Shown piece after piece: positions 7,427 to 49,836 of a stretch of DNA of 64,000 bases (position 1 is its first letter; the number at the start of each line of letters is the position of its first letter). The notes beneath the pieces were generated by a model. The model was not told the origin of the DNA. It saw only the letters and a program-made list of their open reading frames with translations, and made no database searches. This DNA is from an uncultured Bacteroidales bacterium (GTDB taxonomy: Bacteria; Bacteroidota; Bacteroidia; Bacteroidales; UBA932), in assembly GCA_944322925.1 (NCBI GenBank), contig CALUQM010000010.1, positions 1-64,000 of the forward strand, in the 5' to 3' direction. The translations under genes and the position numbers were made by a program.

Positions 7427-9964
7427 ATGACTGAAAGGAAAACGATAAAGAAGATGACCTGTCCTGTGCTCGGAATGAGCTGTGCCGCATGTGCTGCAAG
7501 AGTCGAAAAGACCGTGTCGGGACAGCCGGGGGTTGTCCGGGCGGCGGTAAATTATGCGGCGGCCACCCTGACTGTGGAGTATCGTGAAGGCGAGAGCAGT
7601 CCCGCTTCTCTGAAAAAGGCAGTAAGGGATGCCGGTTACGATCTTCTCGCAGACGGAGGGGACGATGCGGCCGATAAAGCCTCGAAAGCGCATGAAGCCA
7701 GATACAGGACTCTGAAAAAAAGGACGGTCTGGGCCGCCGTACTTGCGCTTCCGACAGCGGTTATAGCCATGTTTTTCCCCGACATGCAGTATGCGGGCGT
7801 TATCATGTGCGTACTGTCGACTCCCGTAGTGTTCTGGCTCGGCCGGGGCTTCTTCATCAGTGCCTGGAACCAGCTCAGACACGGGACTGCGAATATGGAT
7901 ACCCTTGTGGCGAACAGCACAGGCATTGCCTATCTTTTCAGCATGTTCAACATGTTGTTTCCTGATTTCTGGCGGTCGCGCGGTATCGAGCCACATCTGT
8001 ATTTCGAAGCGTCATGCGTGATAATCGCATTTATTCTTCTCGGACGTCTTCTCGAAGAAAGGGCCAAGGGCCGGACATCGGATGCCATACGGAAACTGAT
8101 GGGGCTCCAGCCGGGGACGGTAACCGTGGCTGACGGCGAAAATTTCAGGGAAATACCGGTGAACCAGGTACGCGAGGGCGATATCGTAATCGTCCGGCCC
8201 GGGGAACGTGTCGCAGCGGACGGGACAGTGACCGAAGGCGGCTCATACGTGGATGAAAGCATGTTGAGCGGCGAGCCCGTACCCGTGGCAAAGCATCCCG
8301 GCGACAAGACATTCGCCGGTACGATCAATCAGAAAGGAAGTTTCAGATTCAGGGCCGACAAGGTCGGGACGGACACGTTGTTGTCCAGAATAATAGCGAT
8401 GGTACAGGATGCCCAGGGCAGCAAGGCTCCGGTGCAGAAACTCGTGGACAGGATAGCTGCCGTATTCGTTCCGGCAATCATGGGAATCGCCGCCCTGACA
8501 TTTGTCATCTGGTTAGTTTCGGGGGTGGAAAACGGATTTACCTACGGACTTCTGGCGATGGTTACGGTCCTGATCATAGCGTGTCCGTGCGCCCTGGGAC
8601 TTGCTACCCCTACGGCCATTATGGTAGGAATCGGCAAGGGGGCCGGGCGCGGTATTCTGATAAAGGATGCCGAGAGTCTTGAAATAGCCAGGAAAATAGA
8701 TACAGTAGTTCTCGACAAGACGGGTACCCTGACCTGCGGGAAACCTGAAGTGGTCTTTCTCGAATGGTCGGAACAGGCGTCTAACGCGTCTCGGAATACA
8801 TTGTTGGCTGGCATTCTCTACAGTATGGAAAAGATGTCGGAACATCCTCTTGCGGATGCCGTAGTGAAATATCTGCACGGGGCAGACAGCGTGAAGATTG
8901 AAAATTTCGAAAGCATTACCGGGGCAGGGGTAAAGGGGACTTTCAACGGGGAGACCTATTATGCGGGGAACAGGAAGCTGATGGATGCTGGCGGCGTGGA
9001 TATCGGACGCGGATTTGCGGACAGGGCTGCCGCATGGGCCGATTCGGCATATACGGTGATATGGTTTTCCGACAGAAGGGAAGTCCTTGCGGTCGCTGCG
9101 GTGACAGACAGGATAAGGCCGGATTCCGCAAAGGCTGTAGCTGCCCTGGAAAAGCAGGGAATGGAAGTCTGGATGCTGACGGGAGACAATGCGCGCACTG
9201 CCGCGGCCGTTGCCGGACAGGCCGGAATCCGTAATTTCAAGGCCGGAATCCTTCCTCAGGACAAGGCCGCTTTCGTTAAGGGACTGCAGAGCCGGGGACG
9301 CAAGGTCGCAATGGCAGGTGACGGAATCAATGACAGCGCCGCTCTCGCACAGGCTGACCTGGGCATTGCAATGGGGAGCGGAAGCGATATAGCCATGGAA
9401 GCGGCCAAGATGACGATCATATCGTCCGATCTTTCCAAGATATCCGAAGCTGTCCGCCTGTCCGCGCTTACTGTAAGGACGATAAGACAAAACCTGTTCT
9501 GGGCATTCATATATAATATGATAGGAGTCCCGATTGCTGCCGGTGTCCTGTATCCTGTCAACGGTTTTCTCCTCAATCCGATGATTGCCGGGGCTGCGAT
9601 GGCATTCAGCAGCGTTAGTGTCGTGACCAACAGTCTTCGCCTGAAATCGAAGAAAATAGCGGAAGACGACGATACCGGAGGGGACGGGGTTTGCAGCACC
9701 GGATGCCGGGACCGGATTGCCGGAAATAATTGTATTGTATCAAATGATATTGTTATGAAAAAAGAATTCAAGGTTGATGGCATGATGTGCAATCATTGCT
9801 GCATGCACGTGGAAAAGGCGTTGAACGCTCTTGATGGTGTGAAGGCGGAGGTGACGCTGGACCCTCCTGTGGCGCATCTGGAATTTTCGGGCAGGGAATA
9901 TACTCTTGAGGAACTTCAGAAGCAGGTTTCGGAAGAGGCTGGAGAATATACTCTGAGCGAGTAA
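7427..9964 (+). CDS. copA: Copper-translocating P1B-type ATPase with N- and C-terminal heavy-metal (HMA) domains
   Basis: An 845-residue membrane pump for Cu+ export. The N-terminal HMA domain has the metal motif GMSCAAC (Cys19, Cys22). The transmembrane metal site is Cys386-Pro-Cys388. The phosphorylation motif DKTGT begins at Asp430, the SEHPL motif of P1B pumps follows, and the hinge motif GDGIND has Asp632. Unusually, a second HMA domain is fused at the C-terminus (residues about 777-845, CNHCC motif at 788-792). The linker between pump and second HMA domain is AT-rich and contains an in-frame ATG at 9755, so a free copper chaperone might also be made from the same mRNA. A MATE gene follows 18 bases later. 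Confidence 0.93.
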   Translation: MTERKTIKKMTCPVLGMSCAACAARVEKTVSGQPGVVRAAVNYAAATLTVEYREGESSPASLKKAVRDAGYDLLADGGDDAADKASKAHEARYRTLKKRTVWAAVLALPTAVIAMFFPDMQYAGVIMCVLSTPVVFWLGRGFFISAWNQLRHGTANMDTLVANSTGIAYLFSMFNMLFPDFWRSRGIEPHLYFEASCVIIAFILLGRLLEERAKGRTSDAIRKLMGLQPGTVTVADGENFREIPVNQVREGDIVIVRPGERVAADGTVTEGGSYVDESMLSGEPVPVAKHPGDKTFAGTINQKGSFRFRADKVGTDTLLSRIIAMVQDAQGSKAPVQKLVDRIAAVFVPAIMGIAALTFVIWLVSGVENGFTYGLLAMVTVLIIACPCALGLATPTAIMVGIGKGAGRGILIKDAESLEIARKIDTVVLDKTGTLTCGKPEVVFLEWSEQASNASRNTLLAGILYSMEKMSEHPLADAVVKYLHGADSVKIENFESITGAGVKGTFNGETYYAGNRKLMDAGGVDIGRGFADRAAAWADSAYTVIWFSDRREVLAVAAVTDRIRPDSAKAVAALEKQGMEVWMLTGDNARTAAAVAGQAGIRNFKAGILPQDKAAFVKGLQSRGRKVAMAGDGINDSAALAQADLGIAMGSGSDIAMEAAKMTIISSDLSKISEAVRLSALTVRTIRQNLFWAFIYNMIGVPIAAGVLYPVNGFLLNPMIAGAAMAFSSVSVVTNSLRLKSKKIAEDDDTGGDGVCSTGCRDRIAGNNCIVSNDIVMKKEFKVDGMMCNHCCMHVEKALNALDGVKAEVTLDPPVAHLEFSGREYTLEELQKQVSEEAGEYTLSE

Positions 9965-9982: not shown

Positions 9983-11407
9983 ATGCGGAAAACAGGACAG
10001 AACAGATTGTTGAAAATGGTTCAGGACGGGCTGCCGATGTCTCTCGGACAACAGCTCCGCCTGACTGTGGAACTGAGTATCCCGGCCATAATCTCGCAAC
10101 TGTCCTCGATTCTGATGCAGTTCATAGATGCTTCGATGGTAGGCAGTCTCGGGGCCGAGGCTTCGGCCTCGATCGGTCTTGTTTCCACGACGACATGGCT
10201 TTTTGCCGGAATTTCCGCCGCAGCCGCCACTGGCTTTTATGTTCAGGTATCACATCTGCTCGGGTCGAAAGACACTGCCAATGCCAGGAGCGTCCTCAGG
10301 CAATCCATTGTCATGACGATGATTTTCAGTGCGGCCGTTGTCGCCACAGGCTGTGCAATAAGCTGGCCGCTGCCGCGCTGGCTCGGAGGAGAGGAAGTCA
10401 TACGGCATGACGCGTCGATGTATTTTCTGATATTCATGCTTTCCCTGCCGGCCCTGCAGCTCAACATGCTTGCAAGCGGGATGCTGAGGAGCAGCGGCAA
10501 TATGATTACTCCGAGTCTCCTGAATGTCATGATGTGTCTTCTGGATGTGGTTTTCAACTTTTTCCTGATTTTCCCGACAAGGAGCGTGGAATTTCTGGGG
10601 ATGGACATCATGATGCCGGGGGCCGGACTCGGAGTTACGGGAGCGGCCCTCGGCACGGCGCTGGCTTCAGCGGTCGTGGCTGCCATGCTTATGTATTCCC
10701 TGTGCGTGAAGTCTCCGGAACTTGCGATAGCCGGGGAAAAAGGCAGTTTCCGCCCTACCGGGCAATGTTTCAGGAATGCAATAGGCATTGCCTTGCCGAT
10801 GGGGTGCGAAAGGGTCATAATGTGCGGCGCCCAGATCATGTCGACAGTCATTATAGCCCCGCTCGGTACGATAGCCATAGCTGCAAATTCCTTTGCAATA
10901 ACGGTAGAGAGCCTTTGCTACATGCCCGGACACGGGGTTTCCAATGCGGCCACTACCCTTGTCGGACAGAGCATCGGAGCCAGAAGGAGGGACCTTACAT
11001 GGCGGTTTGCACACATTTCTGTGCTGATGGGCATTGCCGTCATGACCGTAATGGGCATAATAATGTATGCGACATCTTCATTCATGATGGGAATAATGAC
11101 GCCTGATGCAGCAGTCAGGGAACTCGGGGCGACCATCCTTAAAATCGAGGCTTTTGCGGAGCCGATGTATGCGGCTTCGATTGTCGTCTACGGGGTTTTT
11201 GTCGGGGCCGGCGACACTCTTGTGCCGAGTATCATGAATCTTTGCAGCATCTGGGCAGCGCGGCTTTCTCTGGCTGCCTTCCTGGCTCCGGAATTCGGCC
11301 TCGAAGGCGTATGGGTGGCAATGTGCGTCGAGCTTTGTTTCCGCGGCATCATCTTCCTGATAAGACTTTACAGGAAAAAATGGCTCCGCGTTTCCGATTT
11401 CCGCTGA
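9983..11407 (+). CDS. MATE family efflux transporter
   Basis: A 474-residue integral membrane protein with about 12 predicted transmembrane segments in two related halves. The repeated helices that begin LSIPAIISQLSSILMQFID and the internal AIGIALPMGCERVI mark the two MATE bundles. Family members export cationic drugs, flavins or other small molecules in exchange for Na+ or H+; the substrate is not visible. It follows the copper ATPase closely and precedes the PqqD/ABC cassette, but the latter has its own promoter-like element. Confidence 0.88.
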   Translation: MRKTGQNRLLKMVQDGLPMSLGQQLRLTVELSIPAIISQLSSILMQFIDASMVGSLGAEASASIGLVSTTTWLFAGISAAAATGFYVQVSHLLGSKDTANARSVLRQSIVMTMIFSAAVVATGCAISWPLPRWLGGEEVIRHDASMYFLIFMLSLPALQLNMLASGMLRSSGNMITPSLLNVMMCLLDVVFNFFLIFPTRSVEFLGMDIMMPGAGLGVTGAALGTALASAVVAAMLMYSLCVKSPELAIAGEKGSFRPTGQCFRNAIGIALPMGCERVIMCGAQIMSTVIIAPLGTIAIAANSFAITVESLCYMPGHGVSNAATTLVGQSIGARRRDLTWRFAHISVLMGIAVMTVMGIIMYATSSFMMGIMTPDAAVRELGATILKIEAFAEPMYAASIVVYGVFVGAGDTLVPSIMNLCSIWAARLSLAAFLAPEFGLEGVWVAMCVELCFRGIIFLIRLYRKKWLRVSDFR

Positions 11408-11421
11408 TCTTAGTATCTTTG
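11391..11421 (+). promoter_or_regulatory. Promoter of the PqqD/ABC/HprK-like/S26 cassette
   Basis: TATCTTTG (11414-11421) is a perfect TAnnTTTG element. TTTC (11391-11394) lies 19 bases upstream and matches three of four -33 bases. The element overlaps the end of the MATE gene and lies 24 bases before the ATG at 11446. It suggests that the cassette is an independent transcription unit. Confidence 0.6.
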
Positions 11422-11445
11422 CATAATCTGAAACCGATGCCAGTC

Positions 11446-11712
11446 ATGAGAATTTCGAATAAGTACAAGGTCCGCGAAATGGCCGGACAGCATGTAGTCA
11501 TAATACAAGGCAGGAACGGCGAGGACATGACCAGAATCATATCCCTGAACAAGACGTCGCTGTTCCTGTGGAACAGTCTGTACGGCAAGGATTTCGAGAT
11601 CGGAGATGTTGCCTGCGTCCTGATGCGTGAATACGGCATCGATGAAGATCTGGCGATGAAAGATGCAGGTGACTGGTGCGCCAAGCTGGAAGAATGCAAA
11701 CTTCTGGCGTAG
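11446..11712 (+). CDS. PqqD-like protein (RiPP recognition element)
   Basis: An 88-residue protein with the PqqD pattern: a short beta-hairpin start (RISNKYKVREMAG), the LNKTSLFLWNSL segment, then helices ending in CAKLEECKLL. PqqD-like domains bind leader peptides of ribosomally made, modified peptides and present them to tailoring enzymes. ATGs at 11437 and 11446 are both possible; I prefer 11446 because it aligns with the family start. The ABC gene begins 7 bases after the stop. The gene is first in a cassette with an exporter, a kinase-like protein and a peptidase. Confidence 0.8.
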   Translation: MRISNKYKVREMAGQHVVIIQGRNGEDMTRIISLNKTSLFLWNSLYGKDFEIGDVACVLMREYGIDEDLAMKDAGDWCAKLEECKLLA

Positions 11713-11719
11713 TTCTCAG

Positions 11720-13372
11720 ATGGATTTCAGGACCATATTCTCAGTCGTTCCAGACCGTTTCAGGAAGAAAGGCTGGCTCGTGGCGGCTTCCCTGTTTCTG
11801 AGGGCGGTCCTCGATTTTGCAGGAGTAGTTGTTTTCATACCGGTACTTGCCCGTGTCCTGGAAAAGGACGGCACCCCGCGCTCTGTCCTTCCGGTTGCTG
11901 CTGCGGCTCTGACATTCATAATCGTCAAAAGTCTGGCAGTCGTCTTCCTTGCGAGATTCAGAAGCCGCTTCGTCTTTTCCCTTTATGCCGGCCTGGCGGA
12001 TTCGGTATTGATGAATTTTGCAGGAAGAGGTCTTCTGTTCGTAAGGCAGTCGGACAGTACGGACCTTGCCAACAAGGTGAATTCCGTGACGATGACTTTC
12101 ACCTCGGGGGTGATTCTTGCCCTGCTTAACGTCCTTTCGTCGGGACTTCTGCTCGTCATACTCCTGGTTTCGCTTTTCATTTATAATCCTTTGCCTACAC
12201 TGGCCATTGTGGCTGTAATCTGTCCGCTGATGTTTCTGTATTCCTTTTTCATAAGGAAAAGGATGAAACGTCTCGGAACTGAGGAAAACGAGGCGAGACG
12301 TGGGCAGGCGAGAGCCGTATATGAATTTTTCAGAGGCTATCCGGAGTACTATGTCAATAATGCCGAAGATCATCAGTTTTCGGTGTTCCGTTCTCAGCTG
12401 TCGCGAATCAGGGATGTCAGAACGGAAGCCGAATCATGTACGGCGGCATCTTCAGGCTTCATGGAAATTACGGTCATGCTGTCGATTGTCCTGCTTATGC
12501 TGCTGTCCATGTCGCCTGCCTGGGGAATTTCAATGACTTTCGGAATATTCGCCTTGTCTGCCATGAAGATACTTCCGGCAGTGCGGTCGATAGTGGCCGG
12601 CTGGCAGAGTATCCAGTCGTCGTATTACAGTGCAGGGATTCTGAAGGATATTCTCGGCTGGGGCCATGATTCCAGCCAGGTGCGGGAGAAGTCCGGAACC
12701 CTTGCATTTTCCGGCAGTTTTTCCCTGCGCTCAGTCTCGTTCAGTTTCGACGGGAATTCCGCCTGTATTTTCAGGGATTTCGATCTTGAGATAAGGAAAG
12801 GGGAGTATGTCGGTATCAAGGGACGGTCCGGAATCGGAAAAACTACGCTCTTCAATCTGCTGATGGGTTTTTATGTTCCCCGGAAGGGCGGCCTTTATGT
12901 AGATGATGAAAAGATAACTCCCTCCAGCCTTCCGGCATGGCAGGCCATGATAGGGTATGTTCCGCAGGATGTCTTCCTTGTCAACGGTACCTTTGTACAG
13001 AACGTAGCGTTCGGAACAGATCCGCTTGAGGCCGACAGGGAAAAGATCGGACGGATATTCAGAAAGGTCGGATTGTGGGAGTGGATTTCTTCTCTGCCTC
13101 TTGGCATGGATACAAGACTGGCAGAAGCAGGCCATTCGGTCTCCGGAGGACAGAAACAGCGTATAGGTATAGCCAGAGCGCTGTACAAGGGTGCTTCAGT
13201 CCTGTTTCTCGATGAAGCCACGTCTTCCGTGGATGCCGAGGCGGAGTCCGGGATAAATGCTTTCATTTCCGAACTTTCGGAAGAAAATCCGGCCCTTACC
13301 GTTGTAGTCATTGCGCACAGGCAGGAGACTCTGGCATCATGCCGGCGTATAATAGATCTCGATACCTTGTAA
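11720..13372 (+). CDS. ABC transporter, fused permease and ATP-binding protein
   Basis: A 550-residue half-transporter that would act as a dimer. The N-terminal membrane domain (about residues 15-310) has around six transmembrane segments and the ATPase domain covers about 335-550. Motifs are Walker A GRSGIGKT (368-375), Q-loop YVPQD, signature VSGGQKQR (about 474-481), Walker B VLFLDEAT (Asp498) and an H-loop AHRQE. There is no N-terminal C39 peptidase domain, so any leader removal needs another enzyme, and the S26-type gene of the cassette is a candidate. The start at 11720 is chosen because it begins MDFRTIF next to the membrane domain. The next gene starts 1 base after the stop. Confidence 0.9.
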   Translation: MDFRTIFSVVPDRFRKKGWLVAASLFLRAVLDFAGVVVFIPVLARVLEKDGTPRSVLPVAAAALTFIIVKSLAVVFLARFRSRFVFSLYAGLADSVLMNFAGRGLLFVRQSDSTDLANKVNSVTMTFTSGVILALLNVLSSGLLLVILLVSLFIYNPLPTLAIVAVICPLMFLYSFFIRKRMKRLGTEENEARRGQARAVYEFFRGYPEYYVNNAEDHQFSVFRSQLSRIRDVRTEAESCTAASSGFMEITVMLSIVLLMLLSMSPAWGISMTFGIFALSAMKILPAVRSIVAGWQSIQSSYYSAGILKDILGWGHDSSQVREKSGTLAFSGSFSLRSVSFSFDGNSACIFRDFDLEIRKGEYVGIKGRSGIGKTTLFNLLMGFYVPRKGGLYVDDEKITPSSLPAWQAMIGYVPQDVFLVNGTFVQNVAFGTDPLEADREKIGRIFRKVGLWEWISSLPLGMDTRLAEAGHSVSGGQKQRIGIARALYKGASVLFLDEATSSVDAEAESGINAFISELSEENPALTVVVIAHRQETLASCRRIIDLDTL

Positions 13373-13373
13373 T

Positions 13374-14291
13374 ATGAATTCATTGAGCATCAATTTATCC
13401 GGTCCTGCCGAAAGGCGGATTTCAGTCGCGGATCTTGTTTTTTCAGTCACAGGGGATCCGTTCGCTGACTTTATCGACAGGTGCGGGGCTTTCGGGAATT
13501 TTCTTACTGAAAACACTCCTGATTTTCATCTGGAATGCTGTCTGGACGGGCAAAGTGTCCGGGAATCGGAAGCATACGGGTGCCGCGAAAGCTGCTATGA
13601 AATCAGCTTCGAGGGAATAGACTGTTCGTATGGCAGGGCAGGCGGAGACATTTATTTCGAAATGCAGTCTCCGGACAGGAAGTCCGTGCTTGTACTTTTG
13701 TGGAAACCGGGATCCTGCGAAGTGAAATGCACCTGCGGGAAATATCCTCCGGCAATGACGAGATTCGGACTGTGGATGGCATTCAACATGCTGAGCATAA
13801 CGAGGAACTGCGCAGCGATACACAGTTCGGTAAATATCTGCGGCGGGGAGGCGGCGATGTTCCTCGGGGAATCGGGGACAGGAAAGAGTACCCACACCAG
13901 ACTGCTGCGAGAGAGGTATCCGGAGATGTTTCTGCTGAATGACGACAGCCCTTTCGTGAGGGTGCATGAAGACGGGACCGTTATTGTGTACGGGTCGCCC
14001 TGGAGCGGAAAGACACCATGCTACAGACAGGAGAAATATCCTTTGAAAGCGGTCATAAGACTGAGCCAGGCTCCATTCAACAGGATACGCTCCCTTTCTC
14101 CGCTGCAGGCGATAGGAGCTCTCCTTCCTTCCGCCCCGCCTGCATTCAATTATGCAGGAGAGACAGCCGACCTGATCTGCTCCCTTGTCTCGGACATAGT
14201 GTCCGTGACGCCTTTGTACCATCTCGAATGTCTGCCTGACAAGGCTGCGGCGGAATTGTCGTATAAAACGGTTTTCGGCAATGGGCGCTGA
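13374..14291 (+). CDS. HPr kinase-like P-loop protein
   Basis: A 305-residue protein whose C-terminal half resembles the HPr kinase / PEP-carboxykinase-like fold. The P-loop GESGTGKST is near residues 164-172 and the NDD motif near 188-190 matches the paired Asp of HprK. A segment YGSPWSGKTP follows. The N-terminal half (residues 1-150) is unassigned and Cys-rich. Related stand-alone proteins occur in lasso-peptide and other RiPP clusters, where some phosphorylate the precursor peptide. Here the context (PqqD-like protein, exporter and peptidase) suggests such a role, but no substrate is visible. Its end overlaps the S26 peptidase gene by 11 bases. Confidence 0.78.
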   Translation: MNSLSINLSGPAERRISVADLVFSVTGDPFADFIDRCGAFGNFLTENTPDFHLECCLDGQSVRESEAYGCRESCYEISFEGIDCSYGRAGGDIYFEMQSPDRKSVLVLLWKPGSCEVKCTCGKYPPAMTRFGLWMAFNMLSITRNCAAIHSSVNICGGEAAMFLGESGTGKSTHTRLLRERYPEMFLLNDDSPFVRVHEDGTVIVYGSPWSGKTPCYRQEKYPLKAVIRLSQAPFNRIRSLSPLQAIGALLPSAPPAFNYAGETADLICSLVSDIVSVTPLYHLECLPDKAAAELSYKTVFGNGR

Positions 14292-14760
14292 TACGGACAG
14301 GATACTTGTCATCCCGAACGATGTCTTTTTCTCCCGGGTCTGCGAAAGTCTCGGGGAGGGCGGTAAAGTGACTTTTACCGTAAAGGGACACAGTATGTTC
14401 CCGTTCTTGCGCAGCGGTAAGGACAGGGTTTGCGTAGTGAAGCCTGAAAGCGGCGGCCTGACCGCAGGGGATGTAATCCTGTTCAGATTCCGCGGGAATT
14501 ATATTCTTCACAGGATATATCGAATCAGAAAGACTCCTGACGGAGCGCCCCTGTATGTGACAATGGGTGACGGGAATACCAGAGGAACGGAAACTGCCGT
14601 GCCTGCTTCCGTAGCGGGAGTAATGGTGAAAAGAATTACTCCCGAGGGGAGGGAATGGGAATGCGGCTCCCTGTCATGGAAGTTCTGCTCGCTGGTATGG
14701 ATGAAATTACTGTTTGTCAGGAGATGGTGTCTTGCTGTCCTGAGGCGTATCTGCCGTTGA
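14281..14760 (+). CDS. S26-family (SipW/ER-type) signal-peptidase-like protein
   Basis: A 159-residue protein with the signal peptidase motif GHSMFPFL, whose nucleophile would be Ser38. The second conserved block GDVILFRF...HRI has His77 where LepB-type enzymes have Lys. A Ser/His pair is typical of the SipW/eukaryotic ER-type group. MGDGN is the later conserved box. There is no N-terminal membrane anchor; the C-terminal 25 residues are basic and hydrophobic and could touch the membrane. It is the last gene of the cassette and overlaps the end of the convergent pth gene by 54 bases. Confidence 0.78.
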   Translation: MGADTDRILVIPNDVFFSRVCESLGEGGKVTFTVKGHSMFPFLRSGKDRVCVVKPESGGLTAGDVILFRFRGNYILHRIYRIRKTPDGAPLYVTMGDGNTRGTETAVPASVAGVMVKRITPEGREWECGSLSWKFCSLVWMKLLFVRRWCLAVLRRICR

Positions 14761-15336
14761 GATTTTCTTCGGTCTGGCATTGACCGTGTTCATGGCCCTG
14801 TCAGGGCCTGCCGTAGCAAAGGTCTTTATTCCGGTAATGACCCTGTCGCAAATTTCAGGCATTTGCTTCATCTCGTCTTCTCCGAGTTCCCCGAGCACAA
14901 AGTCTATCTGTCCTCCGCGGCAGAAATCATTGCCTATGCCTACTCTGATTCTGGCATATTCCTGGCTGCCGAGCATCTCTGTTATGTTCGTAAGCCCGTT
15001 GTGTCCTCCCGCGCTGCCGTTTTTCCGCATCCTTATGGTGCCGAACGGAAGGTTGAGGTCATCCGAGATGACGATCAGGTTTTCAAGAGGAAGCCCGAGT
15101 TCGTTCATCCAGTACCTTACGGCCTTCCCGCTTAGATTCATGTATGTGGACGGCTTGAGAAGAGTGAATTTGCGTCCCTTGTAGGATATTTCGGCAGTGC
15201 TTCCGTATCTGCCGGACTGAAAAACGATATTGGATGCCTTTGCCCAGGCATCCAATACCATGAAACCCATATTATGTCTGGTATTCGAATATTCTGCGCC
15301 GATATTTCCGAGACCGGCAACCAGAAATCTGTCCAT
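14707..15336 (-). CDS. pth: Peptidyl-tRNA hydrolase
   Basis: A 209-residue enzyme that recycles peptidyl-tRNA by cutting the ester bond between peptide and tRNA. It has the family landmarks GLGNIGAEYSNTRHNMGF (catalytic His in the RHN segment), KPSTYMNLSG, DDLNLPFG and SAGGHNGL. The C-terminal 20 or so residues (Thr/Pro/Lys-rich) extend past the usual end, and that part overlaps the end of the convergent S26 peptidase gene. It lies 17 bases behind rplY, the common order in Bacteroidales. Confidence 0.95.
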   Translation of the reverse strand: MDRFLVAGLGNIGAEYSNTRHNMGFMVLDAWAKASNIVFQSGRYGSTAEISYKGRKFTLLKPSTYMNLSGKAVRYWMNELGLPLENLIVISDDLNLPFGTIRMRKNGSAGGHNGLTNITEMLGSQEYARIRVGIGNDFCRGGQIDFVLGELGEDEMKQMPEICDRVITGIKTFATAGPDRAMNTVNARPKKISTADTPQDSKTPSPDKQ

Positions 15337-21687: not shown

Positions 21688-22583
21688 AATCTTCTTTTGC
21701 GGCAGGAATCGCCGCACTTGTATTTATCGTAATCGGCTACCAGTCGGCCCTGTTCATCCACAGGGCGGCGGTGCTCGGGATATTGGACAGGAAGGATGTT
21801 CCGGACACCGTTTTCGTTATCGACAAGACCATGGCCGGAAGAATCCTCGATGCCGTCCCGAAGGAGCAGCTCGTGAACCATGAGCAAAAGCTCCGCGGCA
21901 AGGACGTGTATGTCATCAGAAAAAATGCAGTCCATGAGCCTGAAGTGGAGGCTGTCAGGCAAAAGGCGGCTCCGAGAATTGTCGAGAGCTTCAGATTCAA
22001 TCCCAATACCGTTCCTGTCCCTGATCTTGTACGGCTCGGCTTTTCAGAAAGACAGGCCGTATCCATAGACAATTACAGGAAAAAGGGCGGGATATTCAGA
22101 AGAAAGGAAGATTTTGCGGAATCATACGTTGTCGCGGACAGCGTATATGCCCGTCTCGAAACGTATATCGATATCCCGCTGATCGATCTCAATGCGGCAG
22201 ACTCGGCGGCTTTCGACATGCTGCCGGGAATAGGAGGCTACTTCGCGGCGAAAATGGTGGAGTACAGGACCAGACTCGGCGGTTCCTATTCGTACAAGGA
22301 ACAACTGATGGACATATACAATTTCGACAGGGAGAAATTCGACGCCCTGTCTGATCTCATATCGGTGGATCCGGAGAATATAAGGCCCTATCCTCTATGG
22401 AGTCTCCCTGCCGATTCTCTTAAAAGGCATCCGTACATAGGTTCCTATGCCGCAAGGGGAATCGTCCTTTTCAGGGAGAACAATCCAAGTTCCGAATGGT
22501 CTGTAAAGGCTTTGTCGGAAGCCGGAGTAATCAAGCCCGAAATGGCCGGGAAGCTGGAACGCTGCGTCATAGCCGGCCCTTAG
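21642..22583 (+). CDS. Helix-hairpin-helix (ComEA-like) membrane protein
   Basis: A 313-residue protein with a cytoplasmic N-terminus, one transmembrane segment at about residues 15-40 and a large region with repeated helix-hairpin-helix motifs. The clearest is LIDLNAADSAAFDMLPGIG (about residues 182-200), and another begins FRFNPNTVPVPDLVRLG. Such domains bind DNA without sequence specificity; ComEA uses one in DNA uptake. Membrane-anchored multi-HhH proteins are common in Bacteroidota, but their role is not settled. The gene overlaps rsmI by 46 bases and ends at a weak hairpin facing an aldehyde dehydrogenase gene. Confidence 0.75.
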   Translation: METDGRKPADGKRGLKSSFAAGIAALVFIVIGYQSALFIHRAAVLGILDRKDVPDTVFVIDKTMAGRILDAVPKEQLVNHEQKLRGKDVYVIRKNAVHEPEVEAVRQKAAPRIVESFRFNPNTVPVPDLVRLGFSERQAVSIDNYRKKGGIFRRKEDFAESYVVADSVYARLETYIDIPLIDLNAADSAAFDMLPGIGGYFAAKMVEYRTRLGGSYSYKEQLMDIYNFDREKFDALSDLISVDPENIRPYPLWSLPADSLKRHPYIGSYAARGIVLFRENNPSSEWSVKALSEAGVIKPEMAGKLERCVIAGP

Positions 22584-48351: not shown

Positions 48352-49836
48352 TCAGTTCAGAATATGAGAAATTATAGGATATACGCTTTCGTTTATCATG
48401 TCGCTCATCCACATCGGGGCGAGTCCGAGTCCGGCGATTGCGACTATAAGCACCGTGACAGCCAGTCTTTCGTCCCATGTCGCATCGGTGAGTTTCAGAT
48501 GAGCCGGATTGGTGCAGGTGCCGTAGAGAATCTTCCCGACAAGGCGGAGTATGTACACGGCGGTTATGACGATGGAAGTGCAGGCAATCACGGTTACTGT
48601 CCTGTGGAAAGTGTCGTTCTCCATGAAGGCCCCGTTGAAAATCGTCATTTCGGCTACGAATCCGCTCAGTCCAGGAAGTCCGAGATTGGCCAGTCCTGCT
48701 ATCACATAGCATACGGAAAGGAACGGCATGATTTTCATCAGACCGCTCAGTTCGCGGATATCCCTCGTATGAGTGCGTCCGTATATCATTCCGATAAGTG
48801 CGAAGAAAAGAGCTGTCATGAGACCGTGGCTGAGCATCTGAAGTACTGCGCCTGTAGCAGCAGTGGTATTCATCATCAGTATGGCGAAAAGCACCAGACC
48901 GCAATGCGACACGGAAGAATAGGCGTTTATGTATTTCAGATCCGTCTGAACGCATGCCGAGAAGGCGCCGTAGACTACGGACACTGTCGTGAGGACAATG
49001 AAAATCCAGCTTAGCTCCTGGGCGGCTTCAGGGAGGAGGTACATTGCGATGCGGAAACATCCGTAGCCTCCGAGCTTCATCAAGACGCCGGCATGGAGCA
49101 TGGATACGGCGGTAGGCGCCGACGCATGACCGTCAGGGCTCCATGTGTGAAACGGAAACAGGGCTCCGAGCACTCCGAACCCTATGAAGACTATCGGGAA
49201 CCATATCCGCTGCATGGATACCGGGATATTGTGGAGACTTGCGATTTCAGTTATGTCCATCGTAGTGGCTCCGGCGCCGAAGTAGATGCCGAGGATGCCG
49301 ATCAGTATCAGTGCCGAACCTCCCATGAGCATCAGGGTGAGTTTCATCGCCGAATACTCCTTGCGTCCCGTACCCCAGACTCCGATCAGAAGGTACATCG
49401 GTATAAGGGCTATTTCATAGAACATGAACATCGTGAACATGTCTACAGATATGAAGAAGCCGAACACTCCGACACTGAGAAGGCAGAACCAGATGAAAAA
49501 CTCCTTGACGTCGGAAGTCATTTTCCATGAGGCGAATGTTCCGGTGAAAACAATGATTGCGGACAGCAGTATCATGGCGACCGATATGCCGTCCACTCCG
49601 ACTGCATAGCGTATGTCCAGCGGTTCATACCAGACGAATCCGGCTGTCATCAGCATTTCCGCCGTCTCTCCCTCTGCCCTCAGTCCGAGGTATCTGAATA
49701 CGAGGAAAACGGCAAGGGCAAGAAGCAGCGAGGCTCCTGTCACCATGACGGCATGGATCTGTCTGGTGTTTTTCGAAAGCCACAGCCCCAGCATCATCAG
49801 TACCGGAATAGCCGGAAATATTGACAGTATATTCAT
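48352..49836 (-). CDS. nuoM: NADH-quinone oxidoreductase subunit M
   Basis: A 494-residue antiporter-like complex I subunit. Landmarks are the channel-forming [19 protein letters not shown] segment and [14 protein letters not shown] with its conserved Lys and His. About 14 transmembrane segments are visible. It lies between nuoL (38-base gap) and nuoN (1-base gap). Confidence 0.95.

Follow-up and report, generated by a model that had tools for sequence, protein, structure and literature searches.

A compact PqqD-ABC-kinase-peptidase cassette of Bacteroidales as a candidate trans-acting maturation unit for dispersed acidic peptides

Results

A four-gene cassette and its encoded proteins

We analyzed a 64,000-nucleotide stretch (the window; positions 1 to 64,000 of contig CALUQM010000010.1, GenBank assembly GCA_944322925.1) from an uncultured Bacteroidales bacterium of the UBA932 lineage, whose assembly is 2.25 Mb and 94% complete. 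The window carries a cassette of four plus-strand genes that code for a PqqD-like protein, an ATP-binding cassette (ABC) exporter, a putative HprK-like kinase and an S26-family peptidase. We consider it likely that this cassette matures short acidic peptides encoded elsewhere in the genome. A preliminary description, made from the sequence of the window, had reported four compact genes with gaps of 7 and 1 bases followed by an 11-base overlap, and the open reading frame (ORF) coordinates confirm this:

11414-11422, plus strand: -7-like promoter box TATCTTTGC, 14 nucleotides before the ATG at 11437
11437-11712, plus strand: PqqD-like protein of the RiPP recognition element (RRE) type, where RiPP stands for ribosomally synthesized and post-translationally modified peptide; PF05402; alternative ATG at 11446
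11720-13372, plus strand: ABC exporter, membrane part and ATPase; PF00005; gap of 7 to the PqqD-like gene
13374-14291, plus strand: putative HprK-like peptide kinase, from an alignment and a model with a phosphoenolpyruvate carboxykinase (PEPCK)/HprK fold; gap of 1
14281-14760, plus strand: S26-family peptidase with Ser38/His77; TIGR02228 below cut-off; overlaps the kinase gene by 11 bases

The PqqD-like protein matched Pfam PqqD (PF05402) with 36.6 bits, over the cut-off of 23.4, and was the only PqqD match in the whole genome at an expect value (E) of 0.001. Its structural model, built with 42 sequences, had a predicted local distance difference test (pLDDT) score of 90.7. The best PDB match was the TbiB1-leader complex 5v1u (template modelling (TM) score 0.73, E 1.2e-3), followed by the leader-bound lasso B1 protein 6jx3 and then by PqqD (5sxy). 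No match of the model to solved structures reached E 1e-3, and a sequence search of solved structures returned nothing. An RRE fold is supported by the model. The ABC protein matched ABC_tran (PF00005) with 103.1 bits, and its matches to ABC_membrane (25.5 bits) and, in NCBIfam, to MsbA and to an NHLP exporter were all below cut-off. The Pfam scan found no peptidase domain in it.

No Pfam HprK model matched the kinase, which gave a weak Pfam PEPCK match (19.8 bits, cut-off 26.5) and, in a sequence search of solved structures, weak matches to PEPCK and to transporter P-loops. Its model (pLDDT 95.1) was nearest to PEPCK (TM score by query 0.48) and then to HPr kinase/phosphatase (0.33 or less). 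Four residues (H150, K171, D190, and D191) were invariant in all 43 sequences of our kinase alignment (A5). Lasso-peptide kinases have a common His-Lys-Asp-Asp motif, according to a review (PMC9266682), and the four residues, mapped by their order, would correspond to it. One genus has the kinase and a GcpE/IspG domain in a single continuous ORF (L050 6556-8742; PF04551, 379.7 bits), and a second ORF (L044 8390-10567) starts in the same way by eye; both are possible fusions.

Matches of the peptidase to Pfam Peptidase_S24 (18.5 bits, cut-off 23.3) and to the NCBIfam signal peptidase I model TIGR02228 (38.7 bits, cut-off 51.85) stayed below cut-off, and the sequence search of solved structures gave weak matches to Sec11 and to a bacterial signal peptidase. 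All 106 aligned sequences with a length of 110 amino acids or more, the window protein included, keep Ser38 and His77, and the G-x-S-M-x-P motif was invariant or nearly so in the same alignment. By hydropathy, the window protein has no strong transmembrane segment (maximum 1.45 over 19 residues), and a hydropathy scan found a 19-residue stretch above 1.6 in 14 of the 106 sequences; most relatives appear on this measure to be without a clear membrane anchor. These results uphold the preliminary assignments of a PqqD-type recognition domain, an ABC exporter without its own peptidase domain, a P-loop protein with HprK-like motifs and an S26 peptidase with a Ser38/His77 pair. A check of the PqqD fold, proposed at the same time, came out in their favor, with the model nearest to lasso RRE-leader complexes.

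Conservation of the cassette and a fifth component

A profile search of 99 genomes from the same family found the kinase in 38. We fetched 36 of these 38 loci (the own genome and the contig-edge locus G030 were not refetched) as well as 80 loci from titled database genomes. Locus content was scored by profile scans in all frames, and a full set was defined as PqqD, ABC and S26 within 6 kb of the kinase; some genes at the loci were picked with a simple ORF picker and not a gene caller. Counts anywhere in the locus, and of full sets, were:

36 family loci: PqqD 33, ABC 26, S26 31, NTP_transf_5 13, peptide 11; full set 23
80 database loci: PqqD 61, ABC 51, S26 74, NTP_transf_5 14, peptide 13; full set 39
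58 database loci flanked by 3.5 kb or more on both sides: PqqD 48, ABC 41, S26 53, NTP_transf_5 13, peptide 12; full set 35

The four families thus occur together in 35 of the 58 well-flanked loci, which answers the synteny check that had been suggested for this cassette, and the set is incomplete in the other 23. Gene order differs among the loci, which argues for functional linkage beyond inherited position alone. The order found in the window (PqqD-ABC-HprK-S26) recurs in a congener (L032) and in the loci of the four closest titled kinase relatives (L179-L182; 69-74% identity), namely Candidatus Cryptobacteroides merdigallinarum and three uncultured Bacteroidales. A single strand of the isolate Phocaeicola faecalis FXJYN30E22 (L202) holds, in this order, a peptide gene of the family described below, a 1103-amino-acid lipoprotein-like ORF that starts more than 100 nucleotides past it, PqqD, NTP_transf_5, ABC, HprK and S26; the kinase and peptidase were identified there by our own profiles.

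Many relatives carry a gene of about 370 amino acids between PqqD and ABC, and all four of those scanned were NTP_transf_5 (PF14907). This family was found in 35 of the 99 family genomes, namely in 33 of the 38 with the kinase vs 2 of the 61 others (p 1e-18). By its place in relatives and by this co-occurrence, NTP_transf_5 is a fifth member of the cassette set. The window's genome encodes it apart from the cassette:

G000:C4 (L265 7709-8872), minus strand: NTP_transf_5, on another contig and unlinked to the cassette

By eye, this gene adjoins apparent sugar-nucleotide and polysaccharide genes, and the situation is similar in a congener (L266). The hexose on the phosphorylated Ser of the lasso peptide pseudomycoidin requires PsmN, a nucleotidyltransferase of its cluster; the same review (PMC9266682) leaves open whether PsmN is itself the glycosyltransferase.

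Candidate precursor peptides co-occur with the kinase

Among the small ORFs listed beside relatives' cassettes were short genes with a shared pattern. They encode peptides of 35-65 amino acids with a Y-x-x-P...E-x-G-F leader and an acidic core. Ten were aligned as profile A1, which was seeded by peptides from 10 of the 38 kinase genomes; a second profile, A3, holds 27 peptides. A1 matched 36 of the 99 family genomes, at most 12 times each. The peptide was present in 32 of 38 kinase genomes vs 4 of 61 others (p 1e-15), and after removal of the 10 seed genomes in 22 of 28 vs 4 of 61 (p 1e-11).

Across 295 genomes of the order, A3 matched 17 and the kinase profile 41. We divided the kinase matches into strong (E 2e-39 or better, 18 genomes) and weak (1.6e-26 or worse, 23 genomes), a split drawn after the gap between them had been seen. 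The peptide was found in 11 of 16 strong-kinase genomes vs 4 of 275 others (p 2e-13), a count that omits the own genus and two other own-family genomes and in which no genome had seeded a profile. One of the four peptide genomes outside the strong-kinase set is among the 23 weak-kinase genomes. Several families of the order show the association.

Most peptide matches are on a different contig from the kinase or a long way from it. A peptide was found in the same fetched locus as the cassette in 24 of 116 loci at E 0.01, comprising 13 of the 80 database loci, which contain no profile seeds, and 11 of the 36 family loci, of which 10 are seeds. In genome G116 (L268), a peptide whose leader is shorter by one residue (G116:C102:133854-133985, minus strand) lies directly upstream of the kinase on the same strand; this peptide is the single row left out of the set of 111 described below. 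No known Pfam family was found for the five peptides scanned, and no NCBIfam family for eight, besides two chance-level matches of one peptide.

The preliminary description had seen no precursor gene. This was right for the window's contig (C10), where two peptide profiles run over the whole genome found no match, and wrong for the genome, where the search for short conserved ORFs that it had proposed uncovered two intact members of the dispersed family and a third, defective one:

C48:5204-5344, strand not stated: intact peptide copy, profile match
C47:7446-7550, strand not stated: intact peptide copy, profile match
G000:C7:16474-16578 (L101 about 9470-9610), strand not stated: third copy without an in-frame start, profile match

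The nearest ATG upstream of the C7 copy is in another frame, and runs of seven A and seven G lie between. The missing start may reflect sequence error, decay or phase variation. A fourth match, on C33 (L099), was rejected as it lies inside a transporter-like ORF. Within the window, a loose six-frame motif scan gave three short matches (13655-13798 and 22448-22570 on the minus strand, 49286-49417 on the plus strand), none with the family leader.

A conserved leader with a spaced Ser/Thr and an acidic core

From 128 peptide matches, 113 of them distinct, we kept 111 rows; one was dropped (L176, with a spacing one residue shorter) and one merged. The rejected C33 match is still among the 111. The script demanded an aromatic-x-x-Pro anchor, which none of the 113 failed, and re-anchoring relied on a score over positions 6, 13, 16, 17, and 19, with 4 of 6 points as the minimum. 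Numbered from the leader Tyr, which is present in 111 of 111 rows, Pro occupies +3 in all of them, both under the anchor just described. The Leu position of a YxxPxL motif (+5) holds Ile, Leu, Val or Met in 87 of 111, so its last letter is looser. Glu is found at +13 in 98 peptides and a hydrophobic residue at +16 in all 111, a count that, like part of that at +19, leans on the anchor selection.

A Ser or Thr lies 19 or 20 residues past the Tyr in 110 of 111 peptides, the sole exception being the C33 match. It is at +19 in 95 peptides; 15 of the remaining 16 have it at +20, vs 14 of the 95 (p 8e-10). The two subtypes differ at +17, with Ala or Cys in 87 of the 95 peptides with Ser/Thr at +19 and Leu or Met in all 15 of those with Ser/Thr at +20. 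From the alignment, this compensation is not readily explained by profile selection, though single columns can be inflated; it may equally represent a spacer that is one residue longer. Counted from +20, the cores are acidic (median charge -4), with no Lys or Arg in 71 of 111, no Cys in 109 and a Trp within the last six residues in 68. The short peptides thus combine a conserved leader with a variable core, as in RRE-dependent RiPPs in the broad sense. A cleavage site predicted by a signal-peptidase-like -3/-1 rule looked clean in 27 sequences and was dropped on the larger set because three of the 15 peptides of the +20 subtype have Met or Asn at +19.

Other core types follow the same leader. 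Four peptides (L159, L160, L172, and L173; genomes G208 and G388) have cores ending in YRNSLWGDDE(D), and no lipoprotein neighbor was found for them by the rule used. Two others (L164 and L165; G278 and G175) have basic cores (RDAR...PFG) and lie upstream of ORFs that resemble periplasmic binding proteins by eye.

Many peptide genes adjoin lipoprotein-like genes

We profiled the neighbors of the peptides at the best-match places of the family search (31 of the 33 loci L068-L100; L096 and L099 were left out). An ORF of at least 150 amino acids with a lipobox started between -59 and +70 nucleotides from the peptide stop at 28 of the 31 places. An ORF of at least 400 amino acids with both a lipobox and a TK/TR motif followed the peptide at 22 of 31, vs 4 of 691 ordinary genes. 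Under a looser, uniform rule, a lipoprotein-like ORF stood beside 47 of 58 family places and 19 of 25 cassette-linked places, with 111 of 686 ordinary gene ends as the control. Four of the nine neighboring proteins scanned were Mfa_like_1 (fimbrillin-like) above cut-off. The window's genome has six Mfa_like_1 matches, four of them above cut-off, and only the one on C47 has an adjoining peptide match; the pairing is therefore not a general property of Mfa_like_1.

Promoter and flanking genes

The preliminary description had placed the cassette behind its own promoter-like element. The Bacteroidetes -7 consensus is TAnnTTTG, and the TATCTTTGC box at 11414-11422 resembles this element; no TTTG partner was found 16-22 bases upstream of it. 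The pattern TANNTTTGC has 16 matches in the window against 5.6 expected. Two genes identified by Pfam scan flank the cassette:

9983-11407, strand not stated: MATE transporter, upstream of the cassette
14707-15336, opposite strand: peptidyl-tRNA hydrolase, downstream of the cassette

The S26 and peptidyl-tRNA hydrolase genes overlap tail to tail by 54 bases (14707-14760). A reading of the cassette as a defence system was dropped, as none of the three non-ABC proteins had a PADLOC match at E 0.1.

Discussion

Comparison with lasso-peptide and other systems

ABC exporters are part of lasso clusters, and one is found here as well. The phosphorylated lasso clusters (paeninodin, pseudomycoidin and Bsf of Bradymonas) further share with the present system an RRE (PqqD-type B1 there, PqqD-like here), a YxxPxL-type leader, whose last letter is looser here, a kinase with His-Lys-Asp-Asp residues, mapped here by order, and a nucleotidyltransferase (PsmN there and PF14907, possibly a separate family, here). 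They differ in having a B2-type peptidase, in place of which we found an S26 serine peptidase. The cassette also lacks a cyclase, its peptides lack conserved ring residues, and the precursors are scattered in trans and often paired with lipoproteins.

With HPr kinase/phosphatase, the present kinase has the P-loop, PEPCK-like kinase core in common, but the fold match is weak and ranks behind PEPCK (1knx, 1kkl), no Pfam HprK model matched, and the present kinase sits with an RRE and an exporter. The RRE fold is also common to PqqD of the pyrroloquinoline quinone pathway (5sxy), whose leader differs from the one described here, and the Pfam scan found no partner of that pathway in the cassette. 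With type I signal peptidases (Sec11/SipW-like) the S26 proteins share the Ser/His dyad and G-x-S-M-x-P; they differ from them in that most seem, by hydropathy, to have no clear membrane anchor and in the putative peptide-maturation context of the cassette. Among the matches listed in a literature search of titles and abstract beginnings, no paper described the cassette together with these peptides.

A parallel comes from the lasso precursor BsfA, in which a YxxPxL motif extends from -17 to -12, Ser3 is the residue that the kinase modifies, and the RRE speeds up the kinase (PMC10368454). The distance from the Tyr to the phosphorylated Ser is 19 residues, as in the Tyr-Ser/Thr spacing of the present family.

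A proposed pathway and its alternatives

Taken together, the synteny, the co-occurrence of the kinase with the peptides and with NTP_transf_5, the Ser/Thr spacing, the conserved kinase and peptidase residues, the BsfA parallel and the RRE model lead us to regard the cassette as, in all likelihood, a single trans-acting maturation unit of RiPP-like acidic peptides, that is, a non-lasso phosphopeptide system. The substrates would be dispersed, linear and acidic, and by analogy they are probably phosphorylated at a predictable Ser/Thr. In such a pathway, the PqqD-like protein would bind the YxxP leader and present the peptide to the kinase, which would phosphorylate the Ser/Thr 19-20 residues past the Tyr. 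NTP_transf_5 (G000:C4) may then add a further group to the phosphate, as PsmN seems to do in pseudomycoidin. The S26 peptidase would cut off the leader near the G-F-A/C-x-S stretch, the ABC protein would export the acidic core, and no ring would be formed. The lipoprotein encoded just downstream is probably the target or the partner of many cores. The preliminary proposal of a peptide that is recognized, phosphorylated, exported and cut is still the best reading; it was incomplete in that candidate precursors are encoded in trans, NTP_transf_5 is a fifth component and large lipoprotein genes adjoin many of the peptides.

Several observations weigh against this pathway. In the family, 6 of the 38 kinase genomes have no detected peptide and four peptide genomes have no kinase; at the order level, the peptide went undetected in 5 of 18 strong-kinase and 22 of 23 weak-kinase genomes. 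No precursor is linked to the cassette in the window's own genome, where the C7 copy, one of three, is without an in-frame start. Lipoprotein adjacency held at just 12 of 24 order-level places under the looser rule, and the peptide sequences do not resolve the cleavage site. Finally, in the BsfA study, replacing Y, P and L together with Ala left phosphorylation unaffected (PMC10368454), so the leader motif alone is no proof of mechanism.

The RRE, YxxP leader, HprK-type kinase, nucleotidyltransferase and ABC exporter are all parts of lasso clusters, which raises the question of a lasso system with its cyclase and B2 peptidase at another site or unrecognized. We think this very improbable. A profile search for the B2 peptidase (PF13471) found no match in the own genome, and across the 99 family genomes one match was above cut-off and 18 more below. 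No Asn-synthetase-like cyclase was found in the cassette or its scanned neighbors; contigs C22 and C18 of the own genome carry matches to Asn_synthase, of lasso type or other, and such matches also occur in 11 of 14 control genomes. Asp or Glu at core positions 7-9 (69 of 111 with a core start at +17, 65 with a start at +20) is no commoner than in neighboring windows. Gly at core position 1 is not conserved (1 of 111 or 27 of 111 for the same two starts), and Thr at -2 is rare (1 of 111 if the cut follows +16, 14 if it follows +19). By the features tested, the cassette falls outside the lasso class, in keeping with the distinction drawn in the preliminary description; it resembles the half of a phosphorylated lasso system that does the tailoring. 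The one PF13471 match above cut-off (G089:C1:11658-11987, L119) shares its contig with an NTP_transf_5 match about 3 kb away.

Alternatively, the peptides could be modified by the cassette and serve as assembly cofactors within the cell or at the lipoprotein, such as a phosphopeptide chaperone or anchor of fimbrillin-like proteins, while the ABC protein exports something else. The adjacency to lipoprotein-like ORFs (47 of 58 places vs 111 of 686 controls), the four Mfa_like_1 proteins among nine scanned neighbors and the apparent lack of a Sec signal in the peptides, judged by eye and not with a prediction tool, all fit this idea. We consider it unlikely, if the most plausible of the alternatives, as 35 of 58 well-flanked loci have PqqD, S26 and the ABC exporter together, no more than 6 kb from the kinase. 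Least probable of all is a cassette that acts on another substrate and is found with the peptides through common ancestry or a common lifestyle. In favor of this, related genomes do not count as independent cases and most peptide copies are unlinked to the cassette. Against it, the association extends over several families of the order, a peptide shares the locus in 24 of 116 cases (including 13 of the 80 non-seed database loci), and the leader motif fits the RRE type of the PqqD model.

Implications

The proposed trans-acting maturation of phosphopeptides offers a candidate substrate family for a widespread Bacteroidales gene set that previously had none, with the modified residue predicted. 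Beyond this, we tentatively suggest, at somewhat less than even confidence, a linear-phosphopeptide class in Bacteroidales in which the cassette and NTP_transf_5 serve up to a dozen dispersed precursors, each typically bicistronic with a fimbrillin-like or other large surface lipoprotein, and in which the core becomes the ligand, the cap or a covalently attached part of that lipoprotein. One unlinked maturation cassette with many scattered peptide-lipoprotein pairs is an arrangement that cluster-based mining would tend to miss. The roles of HprK-like, NTP_transf_5 and S26 proteins in peptide maturation become directly testable, including in cultured strains (Phocaeicola). If the proposal is true, linear phosphopeptides would constitute an added surface or signalling layer in animal-gut bacteria.

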